Under the pieces are notes generated by a model. That model was given only the letters and a program-made list of their open reading frames with translations. It ran no database searches and was not told the origin of the DNA. From Haloterrigena alkaliphila (GTDB lineage Archaea > Halobacteriota > Halobacteria > Halobacteriales > Natrialbaceae), in assembly GCF_017352155.2 (NCBI RefSeq), contig NZ_CP071462.1:2418001-2482000 (forward strand): a stretch of 64,000 nt of DNA, in the 5' to 3' direction. The first letter of the stretch is position 1; every line of letters starts with the position of its first letter. Position numbers and translations under genes: made by a program. Below are positions 6,925 through 59,625 of this stretch, piece after piece.

Positions 6925-7278
6925 ACTCGTTTTCGATCGCGACTGCGTAGCACCCCCAGATACCGGCCGGGAGCGGGTTCCGAGCACTGCGAGTAACCCG
7001 CAACCCGGGGGAGGGCAGGCCGCCACACCGTTTGCGCCGCGAGCGAGGCCGAAGGCCGAGCGAGCGGGCCGACGACTGCTGTGAACGAGCGACTGACGAC
7101 GCGAAGCGTCGCTCAGAAGTGAGTGAACGGAGGGAGGAGTGTTTTCGTGAGCGTAGCGAACGAAGGCTCGGAAGTCGCAGCCCGCGAACGAAGTGAGCAG
7201 GAACGTCTTCCGTTGCTTTTAATCGAATTTTTGCCGAGGGCGCGCCGTAGGCGCGCCCGCAGCGCAAAACTTCGTTCC
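6925..7278. other. Intergenic mosaic of short GC-rich inverted repeats
   Basis: This 354-base stretch between convergent genes has no convincing ORF. It contains many copies of short words such as CGAACGAAG, GAGCGAG and GTGAGC in both orientations, the mosaic often seen at haloarchaeal gene ends, plus a perfect hairpin at 7238-7258. It probably serves as a two-way 3' end region; no mobile-element gene is present. Confidence 0.5.
7238..7258 (-). terminator. Perfect 9-bp hairpin downstream of the HD-domain gene
   Basis: GGGCGCGCC, a 3-base loop and GGCGCGCCC form an uninterrupted stem 20 bases beyond the stop of the HD gene on the minus strand. There is no downstream T-run on that strand (an A-run follows), so classical termination is uncertain; it could instead protect the RNA 3' end. 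Confidence 0.35.
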
Positions 7279-53972: not shown

Positions 53973-54160
53973 TCATACGACAGTGGAAGTAAATGTTCGG
54001 CCTCCATCGCCCCATCGAATCGGGTGGTAGCGGCACTCCTCGCCGTCGACGATCAGGACGGGGCGGTCCGCGGTCCGAACGAGTCGGGTGACGGTGCTTC
54101 CGAGCAGCGCTCGCCCCGCAGCGGCCGCCGATCGACGGCTGCGAACCGCAATGTGAACGC
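53973..54160 (-). pseudogene. USP gene remnant (C-terminal end only)
   Basis: About 60 residues reading VRSRRSAAAAGRALLGSTVTRLVRTADRPVLIVDGEECRY are the end of a USP domain (nucleotide-loop half and last strand). No start codon and no N-terminal half are present; the sequence begins right after the stop of the gene at 54161-54637. It appears to be a truncated USP copy, perhaps lost when the neighbouring gene was inserted or rearranged. Confidence 0.6.
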
Positions 54161-54637
54161 CTATTCTCCCGCCTCGCGCTCTCGATCGCCGATCGCCGCC
54201 ACGACGTTCCTGACGTAGCGCATGCTCGTCGCGATCGACATGATGCCGTCCATCAGGACCTGTTGGGAGGCGCTGTCGGGGTAGATCCGGTACTCGACCT
54301 GGACCGTCTCCGCACGCCGCAACTGGCACGCCGCACCGTCCGGGTCGAGAAACGTGTAGAACCCCGGCGTCGCCGCCAGCATAGGGCCGACGTACTGGAG
54401 GAGTTCGCTGCGGTGCTGTTCGTCCCGCAGGAGCTCCTTCGTCCGTTCCGTGTCGAATCCGCTCCGACCGACGATCCGCACCGGCCCGAACTCCGACTCC
54501 TTGATGACGTGGACCGGGAGCTGCGAGAGTTCGACCTGCAGATTGAACTCGGTGTCCTCGTCGGTGTGGGCCGTCACGTCCCGGATCGCCGTCTCGTCCA
54601 GCCAGTGGCGGATCTGCGTCTCGCTAATGTGCCTCAT
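54161..54637 (-). CDS. DUF2299/YbjN-like small protein
   Basis: A 158-residue protein starting at ATG 54637 (MRHISETQIRHWLDE); a longer in-frame start would run through low-complexity upstream DNA. The alternating strands (EFNLQVELSQLPVHVIKE ... RRAETVQVEYRIYP) and C-terminal helix (GIMSIATSMRYVRNVVAAI) resemble the YbjN-like DUF2299 proteins of archaea, a guess from pattern memory. Some members act as secretion-chaperone-like folds. No clear operon partner. Confidence 0.6.
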   Translation of the reverse strand: MRHISETQIRHWLDETAIRDVTAHTDEDTEFNLQVELSQLPVHVIKESEFGPVRIVGRSGFDTERTKELLRDEQHRSELLQYVGPMLAATPGFYTFLDPDGAACQLRRAETVQVEYRIYPDSASQQVLMDGIMSIATSMRYVRNVVAAIGDREREAGE

Positions 54638-54771: not shown

Positions 54772-55824
54772 TCAGTGTCGTCTGGGCATGGTGGAGTGTC
54801 GCGTACTGGCTCGCATATCCGCGCGTTCCGACGGCGGGGGCGCCATCGTCGAGTGGCGCGTTCCGTCGCCGCCGCCGGTCCTCTTCTCGCTCGAGCCGAG
54901 ATCGGTGTCGAGCGGGCCGTCGTCCTCGTCTTCCTCGGCGTCGTCGGCCCTGTTGTTTTCGTCGTCATCGGTTTCGTCTCCGCCGACGGCGCTGGCACTG
55001 CGGTTCTGCAGTCGATCCTGGAGACCCTCGAGGTCGTCGCCGACGTCGGTCAACGAGGACTCGACCGCCGATCGAAGCCGGTCGCCGATGTCGCCGCCGT
55101 CATCTGTCGACGTCTCGTCGCCGTCCGCCTCGCCGTCCTCGCTCTCGGCCGATTCGTCGTCCTCACTCTCGAGGACCCCGTCGAGCCCCCCGGCCTCGCT
55201 GACCGTCTCGGCGGCCGACTCGATCGCCTCTCGAGCGCCGCCCTCGCTCTCGGATTCGTCACTTTCGTCGGCCTCGTCGGCGTCTTCGGCTTCAGCGCCG
55301 CCGTCCCCGTCGGCGCTGTCGCCCTCCTCGCTCGAGCCGAGGACGCTCTCGAGCAGTCCGTCCTCGGCTTCGTCGTCGCTCCCGCCGCCGGCGTCGCTCT
55401 CGCCGTCCGCGTCTCCCTCGCCCTCCTCGGCGTCCGAATCGCTCGACGCACCCTCGCGCTCGCCGATCGACGCCCGCAACTCGTCGACGGCACCCTCGAG
55501 TGTCCCCTCGTCGTCGCCGTCGCCGTCGGCGAGATTCGAGAGGTGCAACAGCCGCTGGAGGTCCGCGACCTGCTCCGGATCGCCCTGCGCGATCGCCGCC
55601 GGAATCGAGTTCGGTTCGCTGCCGTCCGGTAGCGTATCAAGGCCGACGGCTGCGAGCAGCTGGTTCGGCTCCGCGGACTCGAGGAGGTCGCTGGCCTCCT
55701 CGGCGGTCTCGAGCAGATCCGTGCCGTCGCCGTTCTCGCCGCCGAGCATCGATCCGCTCGAGGTCTCGGCCGCGTTCAGTATCTCGGTCACCCGGTCGTG
55801 AAGGTCCTGGCTGTCCTGGCTCAT
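54772..55824 (-). CDS. Acidic cluster protein D: Ser/Asp/Glu-rich protein of unknown function
   Basis: A 350-residue protein of very low pI, last of four tandem acidic genes. Residues 1-110 look folded and helical (QDLHDRVTEILNAAE ... DPEQVADLQRLLHLSNL). A motif of the form A-x-E-A-I-E-S-A-A-E-T-V-S-E-A-G-G-L-D-G-V-L-E-S occurs near residue 210 and matches two repeats in the next protein. The rest is low-complexity Asp/Glu/Ser. The C-terminal 30 residues turn basic (RASTRHSTMPRRH). No signal peptide or membrane helix. Function unknown. Confidence 0.75.
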   Translation of the reverse strand: MSQDSQDLHDRVTEILNAAETSSGSMLGGENGDGTDLLETAEEASDLLESAEPNQLLAAVGLDTLPDGSEPNSIPAAIAQGDPEQVADLQRLLHLSNLADGDGDDEGTLEGAVDELRASIGEREGASSDSDAEEGEGDADGESDAGGGSDDEAEDGLLESVLGSSEEGDSADGDGGAEAEDADEADESDESESEGGAREAIESAAETVSEAGGLDGVLESEDDESAESEDGEADGDETSTDDGGDIGDRLRSAVESSLTDVGDDLEGLQDRLQNRSASAVGGDETDDDENNRADDAEEDEDDGPLDTDLGSSEKRTGGGDGTRHSTMAPPPSERADMRASTRHSTMPRRH

Positions 55825-55904
55825 GGCTCCCCTCGGCGTCCGCACCGCGGTTCGCGGTTCGCCGCCCGCCGCCGTCGGAGTCGCACTCGAGGGGCGGACG
55901 GGCG

Positions 55905-56885
55905 CTATTCGGCTTCGGCCTCCGCTTCCGACTCGTCCTCGCCTTCGTCGTCCGTCACCGCCGCGATGATCTCGTCGGTCATCTCCTCGCGACTGAGGTT
56001 CGCCTTCACGCCGACGTCCTTGGCCACCGACTGCAGGTCCTGGTAGGACATCACGCCGAGGAAGTCCTCGAGGGTGTCTTTGCGGAGGTCTTCGATGTCT
56101 TCGACCGACGGCTCCGAGTCGTCGCCCGCTTCGTCCTCGACCGTCTCCTCCTCGTCGCCTTCGCCTTCCTGCTCCCCTTCGGACTCCTCGTCCGTTGCGT
56201 CGTCTTCGTCGCCTTCTGCTTCCGGCTCTGCCTCGTCTTCTTCACCTCCGTCTTCCGCGTCGTCCTCGTCGCCTTCACCTTCCGACTCGGTTTCCTCCCC
56301 GTCGTCTTCCGCGTCGTCCTCGCTGCCTTCGACTTCCGACTCGGATTCCTCCCCGTCGTCTTCCGCGTCGTCCTCGTCGCTCTCGAGGAGCTCGTCGAGT
56401 CCGCTCTCCTCGCCGATGCTCTCGACGACGTCCTCGATGGTCTCCTGCGTGCCGCCCTCGCTTTCGGCCTCGTCGGTCTCGTCGTCGCTCTCGGAGTCGC
56501 TCTCTCCGCTCTCGAGGAGGCCCTCGAGGCCGCTCCCCTCGGAGACGCTCTCGGCCAGCGACTGGACCGATTCCTTCGCGTCGTTTTCCTCGACCGACTC
56601 GCGGATGGCCTCGCGGATCGACGCCGTGAGGTCCGACCGTATCTCTTTGCGGTCTTTCCCCTCCTCGATGCCTTCGGCGATCGATTCGTGGATGCCGCGA
56701 CCGATCGCGCCGCCCAGTTCTCGGCCGACGCGTTCGCCGAACTCGCGGCCGACCGCCGCACCGACTTCGCCGCCGTCGATGCTGTCCTCGATGTCGCCGT
56801 CGCCGAGCAGTTCGGCCACGTCGAGCTGGTCGCTGACCTCCTGGGCCACCATCGCTTTCAGCCCGCTCTCAGTCACGGCGCTCAC
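55905..56885 (-). CDS. Acidic cluster protein C: glycine-zipper N-terminus and SAP/Rho-N-like C-terminus
   Basis: A 326-residue protein. Residues 35-80 have GxxxG spacing (GGEVGAAVGREFGERVGREL), a glycine-zipper-like helix able to oligomerise or touch membranes. Two copies of a motif ending in GLEGLLES/GLDELLES lie at about 105-160. A centre of Glu/Asp repeats (about 165-265) follows. Residues 265-320 (DLRKDTLEDFLGVMSYQDLQ ... SREEMTDEIIAAV) resemble a SAP or Rho-N helical unit that can bind nucleic acid. No signal peptide. Function unknown. Confidence 0.75.
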   Translation of the reverse strand: MSAVTESGLKAMVAQEVSDQLDVAELLGDGDIEDSIDGGEVGAAVGREFGERVGRELGGAIGRGIHESIAEGIEEGKDRKEIRSDLTASIREAIRESVEENDAKESVQSLAESVSEGSGLEGLLESGESDSESDDETDEAESEGGTQETIEDVVESIGEESGLDELLESDEDDAEDDGEESESEVEGSEDDAEDDGEETESEGEGDEDDAEDGGEEDEAEPEAEGDEDDATDEESEGEQEGEGDEEETVEDEAGDDSEPSVEDIEDLRKDTLEDFLGVMSYQDLQSVAKDVGVKANLSREEMTDEIIAAVTDDEGEDESEAEAEAE

Positions 56886-56936
56886 CTCGAGGCTGGATCG
56901 GCGAGTCGGTGTTGGGAATCTGGCTCCGTTTCATGG

Positions 56937-57521
56937 TCAGTCCTCCTCGGATTCGGCCGCTTCGGCCTCTTCGTCCTCGCCGTCGGCGTCGGCTTCGTCG
57001 CCGCCCCCGTCGTCCGCCGCGGCGTCGTCCTCGCTTTCGTCGGCCTGTTCGTCGTCACCGCCTTCGTCGTCGGACGCATCGGACTCCTCGTCTTCCCCGT
57101 CGTCCGCGGATTCGTCGTCCCCTTCCTCGTCGTCGGATTCGGTCTCGGTGTCCTCCTCCGCCGACTCGTCGGCGTCTTCGGAGGCGTCCTCCTCGTCCTC
57201 GGCTTCCTCCTGAACTTCGTCTTCTTCGGCATCTTCCTCGAGGTCCTCGCCCTCGGCCTCCTCCTCGAGTTCGTCCGCGCCGCCGAGCAGTTCGTCGACG
57301 ACCATGTCGCCGATCGTCCGGCCGATGGATTCGCCGATCTTCCGGCCGACGAGCGCGCCGATCTGGGCGCCCAGCGCCTCGCCGAGGGGCTTGTCCTCGT
57401 CGATCTCGTCTTCCCACTGGGTACCCTCGATCAGCTCGTTGATGTCGATGTTCTCGGTGATCTTCCCGTAGTCGATTCGCTGTGCCATTGATTCGGACTC
57501 GGATTCGGATTCTCCACTCAT
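56937..57521 (-). CDS. Acidic cluster protein B: glycine-zipper protein with acidic tail
   Basis: A 194-residue protein. The N-terminal 80 residues hold a folded region (YGKITENIDINELIEG) and a GxxxG zipper (LGAQIGALVGRKIGESIGRT) resembling that of protein C. The last 110 residues are almost only Glu, Asp, Ala and Ser. It starts three bases after the preceding gene stops, so it is translationally linked. No signal peptide. Unknown function. Confidence 0.75.
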   Translation of the reverse strand: MSGESESESESMAQRIDYGKITENIDINELIEGTQWEDEIDEDKPLGEALGAQIGALVGRKIGESIGRTIGDMVVDELLGGADELEEEAEGEDLEEDAEEDEVQEEAEDEEDASEDADESAEEDTETESDDEEGDDESADDGEDEESDASDDEGGDDEQADESEDDAAADDGGGDEADADGEDEEAEAAESEED

Positions 57522-57523
57522 CG

Positions 57524-59470
57524 TTAGGCTGCCTCCGCTGTCGCGTCGGATTGGTCACTGGCCCCTTCCTGCTCCTCGTCGGGTTCTAGCTGCTCAATTA
57601 ACTGCTCGAGCACCTCGCTGACGACCGTCGCCACGAAGTCCTCGACCGGCAAGCTCGGTACGAGTCCGGCGAGACCCTCCTTCGCCCGGTCGCTGGCTGC
57701 GGAGATCGGACTCGGCGATTCGGTCGCTTCCTCGTCCTCCTCCGCTTCGTCCGGCGTCTCTTCGCCTTCTTCTTCTTCTCCCTCCTCCGCTTCGTCCGGT
57801 GTCTCTTCGCCTTCTTCTTCTTCTCCCTCCTCCGCTTCGTCCGGTGTCTCTTCGCCTTCTCCTTCTCCCTCCTCCGCTTCGTCCGGTGTCTCTTCGCCTT
57901 CTCCTTCTCCCTCCGCTTCGTCCGGCGCTTCCTCTTCTTCGGCTTCGGCCGCTTCTTCCTCGTCCGGCGCTTCCTCCTCGTCTCCGCTGCCGAAGAGCCC
58001 GCGGATCCACTCGACCGGCTTGCCGAGCATTCCCTTCACCCAGCTGACGGCCGAGGAGATCCGGCCACCGGAGTCCGCTTCTTCCTCTTCTTCGCCCTCT
58101 TCGGCTTCGGCCTCCTCCTCGCCTTCGGCTTCTTCCTCGCCGCCGAGTCCCAGCATCCCCAGCAGCTTGTCGAACAGTTCCTTCGGCTTGCTCAGCAACC
58201 CGCTGAGGAACTCCTTGGGCTTCTCGAGGAGTCCGCTGAGCATCTCTTTCGCCTTGCCGGGGGCCTTCTTGAGAAGCTCGATCGGCTTGCTCAGGAGCTC
58301 TTTCGCCTTGCCGGGGACTTTCTTGAGAAGCTCGACCGGCTTGCTCAGGAGCTCTTTCGCCTTGTCGATCATTGCACCGGGGCCGTCCAGTAGCCCCGTC
58401 ACGGCGGACAACAGGTTCCCGAGGAGGTTGTTTCCGCCCGGACGGGCCGACACGTCGAGCTGGAGCGGGTTCAGGTTGACCTCGAGGCCGAGCAGATCGA
58501 GGAAGAGGCCGTCGAGATCGAGATGGAGGACGCCGGACGCGTCGTCGCCCTCGTAGACCTTTTCGGCGTCCTCGGCGTGTCCTTCCTCGCGCTTGTCCTC
58601 GGTGAGGTCACCGGTATCGTCTCCGACGTCCTGTTCCTCTTCTTCAGCTTCCTCTTCTTCAGCCTCTTCGTCTTCGGCTTCTTCCTCTTCGTCTTCGGCT
58701 TCTTCCTCTTCGTCCTCGGCTTCCTCCTCTTCGTCCTCGGCTTCCTCCTCTTCAGCCTCTTCGTCCTCAGCTTCCTCCTCTTCAGCCTCTTCGTCCTCAG
58801 CTTCCTCCTCTTCAGCCTCTTCGTCCTCAGCTTCCTCCTCTTCAGCCTCTTCGTCTTCGGCTTCCTCTTCCTCTGCCTCTTCGTCTTCGGCTTCCTCTTC
58901 CTCTGCCTCTTCGTCTTCGGCTTCCTCTTCCTCTGCCTCTTCGTCTTCGGCTTCCTCTTCCTCTGCCTCTTCGTCTTCGGCTTCCTCTTCCTCTGCCTCT
59001 TCGTCTTCGGCTTCCTCTTCCTCTGCCTCTTCGTCTTCGGCTTCCTCTTCCTCTGCCTCTTCGTCTTCGGCTTCCTCTTCCTCTGCCTCTTCGTCTTCGG
59101 CTTCCTCTTCCTCTGCCTCTTCGTCTTCGGCTTCCTCTTCTTCAGCCTCTTCGTCTTCGGCCTCCTCTTCTTCGGCTTCCTCTTCCTCTGCCTCTTCGTC
59201 TTCGGCTTCCTCTTCCTCCGCCTCTTCGTCCTCTTCTTCCGCTTCTTCGGCGTCAGCACCTTCCGTGTCGGCTGCCGACGCTTCGTCGGCATCACCACTC
59301 GAGTCCTCGTCGTCGCTCTCCTCAGCCATCTCTGCCTGGCCGCCATCGGTCATAATCCTGCGGCCCGATCGCTCCGCGTGCTCACCGTCGTGACGATCGC
59401 TCGAGGCGTCCGCGACCTCCACGGGATCGGAACTCTCCTCGGAACCATCATCTTCTAAACCGTTTGTCAT
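57524..59470 (-). CDS. Acidic cluster protein A: giant repeat-rich protein with LLGNLL core and amphipathic lysine repeats
   Basis: A 648-residue protein, first of the cluster. Residues about 75-285 are nearly pure Glu/Ala/Asp, encoded by a 30-bp tandem repeat. Residues about 310-365 contain DLDGLFLDLLGLEVNLNPL and NNLLGNLLSAVTGLLDG, a motif I know from secreted hypothetical proteins of bacteria and archaea; here there is no signal peptide. Residues about 370-440 are repeated amphipathic units (KAKELLSKPVELLKK). A second acidic repeat (GEETPDEAE) precedes a C-terminal hydrophobic helix (VEDFVATVVSEVLEQLIEQL). The start may be downstream: the only TATA match overlaps the ATG at 59470, and an ATG at 59353 is a good alternative. 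Confidence 0.75.
   Translation of the reverse strand: MTNGLEDDGSEESSDPVEVADASSDRHDGEHAERSGRRIMTDGGQAEMAEESDDEDSSGDADEASAADTEGADAEEAEEEDEEAEEEEAEDEEAEEEEAEEEEAEDEEAEEEEAEDEEAEEEEAEDEEAEEEEAEDEEAEEEEAEDEEAEEEEAEDEEAEEEEAEDEEAEEEEAEDEEAEEEEAEDEEAEEEEAEDEEAEEEEAEDEEAEEEEAEDEEAEEEEAEDEEAEEEEAEDEEAEEEEAEDEEEEAEDEEEEAEDEEEEAEDEEAEEEEAEEEEQDVGDDTGDLTEDKREEGHAEDAEKVYEGDDASGVLHLDLDGLFLDLLGLEVNLNPLQLDVSARPGGNNLLGNLLSAVTGLLDGPGAMIDKAKELLSKPVELLKKVPGKAKELLSKPIELLKKAPGKAKEMLSGLLEKPKEFLSGLLSKPKELFDKLLGMLGLGGEEEAEGEEEAEAEEGEEEEEADSGGRISSAVSWVKGMLGKPVEWIRGLFGSGDEEEAPDEEEAAEAEEEEAPDEAEGEGEGEETPDEAEEGEGEGEETPDEAEEGEEEEGEETPDEAEEGEEEEGEETPDEAEEDEEATESPSPISAASDRAKEGLAGLVPSLPVEDFVATVVSEVLEQLIEQLEPDEEQEGASDQSDATAEAA
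57745..57935 (-). repeat. 45/42-bp tandem repeat in protein A
   Basis: Four to five copies of a unit coding for about 15 or 14 residues (GEETPDEAEEGEEEE types). The first copies have 45 bp and the later ones 42 bp, differing by one Glu codon. It lies in the acidic C-terminal part of protein A. Confidence 0.75.
58215..58365 (-). repeat. 54-bp repeat coding amphipathic lysine helices
   Basis: Nearly identical 54-base units encode KAKELLSKPVELLKKVPG and KAKELLSKPIELLKKAPG; a third, more divergent unit (KAKEMLSGLLEKPKEFL) follows. The positive faces contrast with the acidic rest of the protein. Confidence 0.75.
58640..59255 (-). repeat. 30-bp minisatellite coding the Glu/Ala-rich stretch of protein A
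   Basis: About 20 tandem copies of a 30-base unit. Nine copies at 58861-59130 are identical to each other (plus-strand start CTTCCTCTTCCTCTGCCTCT), and three to four at 58741-58860 form a second identical group (CTTCCTCCTCTTCAGCCTCT). The two groups show local homogenisation. The frame is kept: every unit gives 10 residues. Confidence 0.9.
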
Positions 59471-59625
59471 TATATACGAAAAAGACGGGAGTCAGCGTTG
59501 TGGTGATTTCCCTTGCGTGTGCGACTTTCACCCGTGTCAGCAGTCCGAGGCGGATTCCGACGTTACGTGACGACAAACCGGAAATTTCGAAGCCGGCGAT
59601 CGAACGACGCGATCGCGGCGGACCG

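Follow-up and report, generated by a model that had tools for sequence, protein, structure and literature searches.

An acidic four-gene module tied to gas vesicles in haloarchaea, a candidate stand-in for GvpC

We analysed a 64,000-nucleotide stretch of the Haloterrigena alkaliphila genome (the window, C1:2418001-2482000 of the 4.27 Mb host genome G000) in which four consecutive minus-strand genes, here called A, B, C and D, encode extremely acidic proteins. We are highly confident that these genes belong to gas vesicles, the flotation organelles, because they co-occur with gas-vesicle (gvp) genes, neighbour them in several lineages and include, in D, a homologue of GvpI. The original prediction had left the cluster unassigned to any described system, a view that these three lines of evidence overturn. 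A-D are new gas-vesicle-linked families within a known kind of system. From their distribution among genomes, we further judge that A-B-C-D is probably a haloarchaeal gas-vesicle module standing in for GvpC, since it is present just where GvpC is missing. The genes, with positions in the window, are:

57524-59470, minus strand: gene A, 648 amino acids; '(T/P)DGG' N-terminal motif, Glu/Asp/Ala tracts, LLGNLL core, lysine-rich amphipathic helical repeats and a short conserved C-terminal region
56937-57521, minus strand: gene B, 194 amino acids; N-terminal glycine-zipper domain (ELIEGTQWEDE...LGEALGAQIGALVGRKIGESIGRTIG), then an acidic tail
55905-56885, minus strand: gene C, 326 amino acids from GTG; B-like glycine-zipper domain, acidic linker and C-terminal SAP/Rho-N-like domain
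54772-55824, minus strand: gene D, 350 amino acids from a conserved ATG at 55824 (the open reading frame extends to 55845, giving 357 amino acids); GvpI paralogue by homology

Association of the module with gas-vesicle genes

In about 20 genera of the window's family, the Natrialbaceae, orthologues of the four genes keep the order A-B-C-D. A scan of named genomes queried with the last domain of C returned 57 loci, 56 of them haloarchaeal (Natrialbaceae, Haladaptatus and Halogranum), and A-B-C-D stand in order at nearly all of these 56; the exceptions are loci at contig ends and one locus (L144) at which A was not found. The flanking genes differ between genera, and the unit therefore ends at A and D. 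A-B-C-D is thus one conserved unit in haloarchaea; the failure to co-occur that would have counted against the original prediction did not arise. Conservation of the motifs, the gene order and an upstream element across about 20 genera indicates that A-D are genuine genes and not chance open reading frames, and their products very probably act together.

Co-occurrence was counted in 292 haloarchaeal genomes (one class), gene A being called by a match to an A-core profile and gvp-positive genomes by the presence of gvpA/J/M genes. A and gvp occur together in 95 genomes, gvp without A in 24 and neither in 173, and A is found in no gvp-negative genome (Fisher test, 2e-54). Like members of the gvp gene set, which occur with gvpA/J/M in or near gvp clusters, A is accompanied by these genes in 95 of 95 A-positive genomes. 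B was found in 97 gvp-positive genomes and additionally in three gvp-negative ones at marginal expect values (E) only, 4e-4 to 1e-3. In a set of 41 relatives, gvpA/J/M were present in every genome with a match to D. Within the window's own family, B and gvp are both present in 65 genomes and both absent from seven, which belong to four genera (g6, g7, g9 and g10); two genomes have gvp only and none has B only. The Fisher p-values take genomes as independent when they are in fact related, so that the joint losses in one family and the varied physical linkages are better evidence than the p-values.

These linkages take several forms. At two loci (L163, L164) A, B, C and D follow gvpA-O in that order, at L166 A, B and C do so, and at four more (L093, L165, L167, L176) A and B/C lie directly behind gvpA-O. 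The module lies behind gvpM at L092 (as A-B-C-D) and L169, and A-B-C-D adjoins gvpO at L168. At L091, L175 and L173, A-B are found inside the accessory operon, giving gvpF-G-H-A-B-I-J-K-L-M. In Natrialbaceae the module is mostly distant from gvp; in the host genome the gvpA-N-O / gvpF-M cluster lies about 1.27 Mb away. Plasmid searches outside Natrialbaceae yielded Haladaptatus halobius as the only named relative; on its plasmid about 11 kb separate the module from gvp, and the annotation of the module reads 'hypothetical protein'. The host genome also carries a second, solitary gvpA away from the gvp cluster (G000:C1:187443-187559; L070:7306-7656), and lone gvpA copies occur likewise in G004 (L098) and G009 (L097).

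Homology provides the third line of evidence. Distant relatives of D occupy the gvpI position of gas-vesicle clusters, flanked by gvpH and gvpJ. In profile comparisons, D matches 16 GvpI proteins from gvp clusters with an hhalign probability of 99.4% (E 8.5e-22, 215 columns), and the same 16 proteins match Halobacterium salinarum NRC-1 GvpI with E 1.2e-10. D consists of an N-terminal domain, an acidic linker and a C-terminal tail (RHSTMAPPPSERADM..RHSTMP) common to GvpI, and thus matches the long form of haloarchaeal GvpI both in its N-terminal domain and in its C-terminal STxP repeats. D has neither the terminal YGxRF motif of GvpI, stopping instead after STMP, nor the gvpH/gvpJ position, which a separate gvpI occupies in the host genome. 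Because the YGxRF end is absent and the same genome holds a separate gvpI, the sequence marks D as a distant paralogue of GvpI, distinct from GvpI proper. The GvpI of H. salinarum attaches to the C-terminal portion of GvpC (PMC9372576); it is also a member of the accessory complex, and its loss leads to overlong vesicles (PMC7688916). An orphan GvpI-like gene with an STVP tail, distant from both gvp and A-D, was seen at L062-L065 (e.g. L063:7282-8061), adjoining an apparent pyridoxal-phosphate synthase gene (pdxS) at L063-L065.

Complementarity with GvpC and competing explanations

GvpC is regarded as the protein that strengthens gas vesicles and sets their shape, and its helical repeats are believed to run across the ribs of GvpA; yet many haloarchaeal gvp clusters contain no gvpC. 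We scored GvpC as present by a match to PF05465, with matches adjoining gvpA (e.g. in G050 and G068) serving as positive control. Among the 119 gvp-positive genomes, 95 have A only, 11 have GvpC only, 13 have neither and none has both (Fisher test, 2e-9; 6e-6 outside the window's family). The 292 genomes contain 11 strong GvpC matches, several plainly adjoining gvpA, and neither A nor B occurs in any of these 11. A twelfth A-less case, below the detection of the Pfam model, comes from the window's own family: G011, a gvp-positive genome with none of A-D and no recognisable gvpI, has a gene for a 416-amino-acid GvpC-like protein between gvpA and gvpN (L078:11684-12934). The pNRC200 layout, gvpA-C-N-O, is the standard haloarchaeal order; in the gvp cluster of the host genome gvpN comes straight after gvpA, and no gvpC is found. 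Clusters of Natrialbaceae and Haladaptatus have been reported without gvpC (PMC4390858, PMC3403918), and such GvpC-less clusters also without gvpDE (PMC4390858).

We propose that A works like GvpC, in which case it would bind the outer surface of the vesicle and raise its collapse pressure. The LLGNLL core and the amphipathic, lysine-rich helices of A would hold it to the GvpA shell as a coat, and its acidic tracts, turned towards the cytoplasm, would keep the vesicles in solution at high salt. Through their glycine zippers, B and C would form multimers and tie A subunits together, or to partners through the SAP-like domain of C. D would act as a second GvpI, binding the coat as GvpI binds GvpC, and would restrict the length of vesicles or assist in their assembly. 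We hold this division of labour less firmly than the replacement of GvpC. In a wider reading, to which we give even weight for and against, haloarchaea would have two non-overlapping coat systems, GvpC and a sequence-unrelated four-protein coat made of A-D, the latter being the commoner in the sampled genomes; it would have gone unnoticed because its genes often lie elsewhere and bear the annotation 'hypothetical protein'.

Several points weigh against the replacement of GvpC. The cited Natrialbaceae and Haladaptatus species reportedly produce no gas vesicles (PMC4390858), and the vesicle served by the module might therefore be an unusual or silent one. A table in a 2022 review gives gvpC for the same species (PMC9501494), in conflict with PMC4390858, PMC3403918 and the loci read here. 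In ten gvp-positive genomes gvpC and A-B-C-D are both absent; neither is thus indispensable to the existence of a vesicle cluster, and mutual exclusion alone is no proof of replacement. Compared with NRC-1 GvpC, A gives an hhalign probability of 0.1% and no sequence similarity. Some A homologues have no lysine-rich repeats, which therefore cannot be the whole function of A. Expression, localisation or mutant data for A-D were not found. Membership of A in the GvpC family itself was considered and rejected, A having no Pfam match and no GvpC homology.

It is possible, if rather unlikely, that A-B-C-D serves gas vesicles without substituting for GvpC, in the nucleation, tethering, clustering or turnover of vesicles; the SAP-like domain of C might for example tie vesicles to DNA or protein, and D might modify the GvpF-M nucleation complex. 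Such a role would suit the placement of A-B between gvpH and gvpI within the accessory gvpF-M operon, seen in two families, the paralogy of D to GvpI, itself in the accessory complex (PMC7688916), and the SAP/Rho-N-like predicted fold at the end of C, of a kind often used for nucleic-acid binding, but it leaves unexplained why the module and gvpC never coincide. Control of gvp expression in lineages without gvpDE is an improbable function for the module. GvpC-less clusters do also go without gvpDE (PMC4390858), C has its SAP-like domain and A-D have their own conserved upstream element; yet the SAP-like domain is the only regulator fold seen, structural proteins are the better fit for long acidic tracts and amphipathic repeats, and the B-C fusions and the zipper ending one A homologue suggest a physical complex.

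The association with gvp might also reflect shared ancestry, with A-D in an unrelated role, such as an intracellular scaffold or condensate, and the co-occurrence inherited along the tree. The distance between the module and the gvp cluster in most Natrialbaceae would fit this account, but the joint absence from four genera of one family, the several different physical linkages across families, the 95:0 association with gvp and the homology of D to GvpI largely refute it, and we consider it very improbable. The original prediction had likewise favoured a scaffold, condensate or membrane-associated complex, and nothing that we found points to a condensate or membrane-bound complex. If A-B-C-D does stand in for GvpC, its families would explain how gvpC-less clusters can work and would offer the engineering of gas vesicles for imaging and display a new surface protein. 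The module opens the question of gvpC-less clusters to direct test.

Architecture of the genes and their products

All four open reading frames of the original prediction were found, with the 2-80-base spacing that it gave: the gaps are 2 bases between A and B, 51 between B and C and 59 between C and D (80 with D starting at its ATG). Its description of the proteins as extremely acidic and free of signal peptides also agrees with our results. The calculated isoelectric point is 4.05 for each of the four, aspartate and glutamate make up 47.8% of A, 46.9% of B, 39.9% of C and 30.9% of D against 17-21% in five neighbouring genes, and no signal peptide was seen in A-D. No match of A-D to a Pfam or NCBIfam family exceeded the cut-off, and the four proteins are nowhere described in the searchable literature, most subscription papers lying outside it. 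Further features are:

59497-59522, minus strand: conserved 26-base element upstream of A (GCAYACGCAAGGNNAANNNCCACAAC), present in recognisable form at most of the 15 Natrialbaceae A genes whose upstream regions were compared
58641-59170, minus strand: 30-bp tandem array in A, about 17.6 copies, coding for EEAEEEEAED; varies among species
58382-58537, minus strand: core domain of A (VLHLDLDGLFLDLLGLEVNL...NNLLGNLLSAVTGLLDG), its best-conserved part, from alignments
58139-58375, minus strand: amphipathic helical repeats of A (AKELLSKPVELLKKVPGK...), 54-bp repeats, predicted helices
57575-57718, minus strand: conserved C-terminal region of A (GLVPSLPVEDFVATVVSEVLEQLIEQLE)
55950-56105, minus strand: SAP/Rho-N-like domain of C (VEDIEDLRKDTLEDFLGVMSYQDLQSVAKDVGVKANLSREEMTDEIIAAVT), from a fold model and weak Pfam matches

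The LLGNLL core of A, singled out in the original prediction, is real: about 55 residues are near-invariant in alignments. The fold model of the core is all helices, with a predicted local distance difference test score (pLDDT) of about 50-66 and a predicted template-modelling score of 0.30. The amphipathic lysine helices also proposed for A are predicted as helices, and their hydrophobic moment averages 0.457, a value that none of 2000 shuffles (0.280 +/- 0.042) reached. The 30-bp array is shorter or absent in most relatives. Two A homologues of nearly 800 amino acids (L167:7988-10303 and L176:7539-9887) have apparent immunoglobulin-like domains ahead of the LLGNLL core and long amphipathic arrays with a repeat of about 22 residues after it, and the homologue at L169 has a zipper-like segment at its end. 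In one species (L192, G209; 6932-7198) A is an 88-amino-acid stub, and B, C, D and gvp are still kept.

A domain related to the A core, with extra Cys and no Pfam name, ends a protein with a Tat-like (twin-arginine translocation) signal in the host genome (L162:7265-8080; G000:C1:2187264-2188079). Because this relative sits in such a protein in the same genome, the LLGNLL core is not unique to vesicles and looks like a domain taken up by the A-D module.

The GCAYACGCAAGGNNAANNNCCACAAC element upstream of A occurs as a single copy genome-wide, with up to 3 mismatches allowed, and is a probable promoter or regulator site. A promoter element common to A and gvpA was considered and rejected, A having its own element and gvpA a different one upstream, with no clear shared site. 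The gvpA element (GCTTGCAnnnGCAG..CCGTGTTACGA), about 50 bases before gvpA, is conserved in Natrialbaceae (L069, L071-L090) and is a possible activator site in clusters without gvpE.

GxxxG zippers are present in both B and C, as the original prediction had it, and the two proteins are homologous (hhalign 97.4%, E 1.5e-11) and fused at L093 and L165. B scores 14.1 bits against a cut-off of 25 for the glycine-zipper Pfam family, and no zipper family is listed for C. The SAP/Rho-N-like end noted for C, a candidate helix-extended-helix fold, gains some backing from its fold model (pLDDT 85-93), to which SAP, Rho and FAN1-SAP chains match at Z 4-7 and about 2-4 Å, and from weak Pfam matches, the best being Rho_N with E 9e-4 in one relative alone. 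A match of this domain in a gammaproteobacterium (L155) falls within a sigma-factor-like protein and was put down to chance resemblance, and a 2.7-bit similarity between the end of C and the tail of the G011 GvpC-like protein was not used. Of the motif ending in L-L/V-E-S said to be shared by C and D, the blocks themselves are real (GLDELLES and GLDGVLES); they are conserved only among close relatives.

Two side observations concern the surrounding sequence. A 21-codon open reading frame (MKRSQIPNTDSPIQPRGERRD) lies between B and C on the minus strand (56871-56934) and overlaps the start of C. At 53973-54329 a UspA-like gene remnant, comprising the C-terminal part only, has a DUF2299-like gene on one side and an intact UspA gene on the other, and looks like a decayed copy.

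Comparison with known systems

B and C resemble the glycine-zipper proteins of PF13488 and PF13441 in their GxxxGxxxGxxxG pattern, and differ from them in that the match of B is below the curated cut-off and the helices of B and C are charged and not membrane-span-like. The predicted fold of the last 55 residues of C resembles SAP, Rho N-terminal and FAN1-SAP structures; set beside SAP, Rho-N and HeH domains, its sequence matches are weak and the likeness is known from the predicted fold. D shares with GvpI the N-terminal domain of the Natrialbaceae proteins and the STMPxxRxDM...STVP tail, the tail being found in H. salinarum GvpI as well. Unlike GvpI, it is encoded with A-C as a second copy, the normal gvpI being present as well, and lacks the final YGxRF; D is acidic whereas H. 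salinarum GvpI is basic.

The closest functional parallel that we propose is between A and H. salinarum GvpC (PF05465), the outer, shell-strengthening protein. A differs in its shorter repeat, about 18-22 amino acids against 32-40 in GvpC, in its LLGNLL core, in accompanying B, C and D, and in often being encoded away from gvpA. Like GvpC, A combines amphipathic helical repeats with a separate C-terminal part and acidic segments and is linked to gas-vesicle clusters, and the two proteins are found in complementary sets of genomes.

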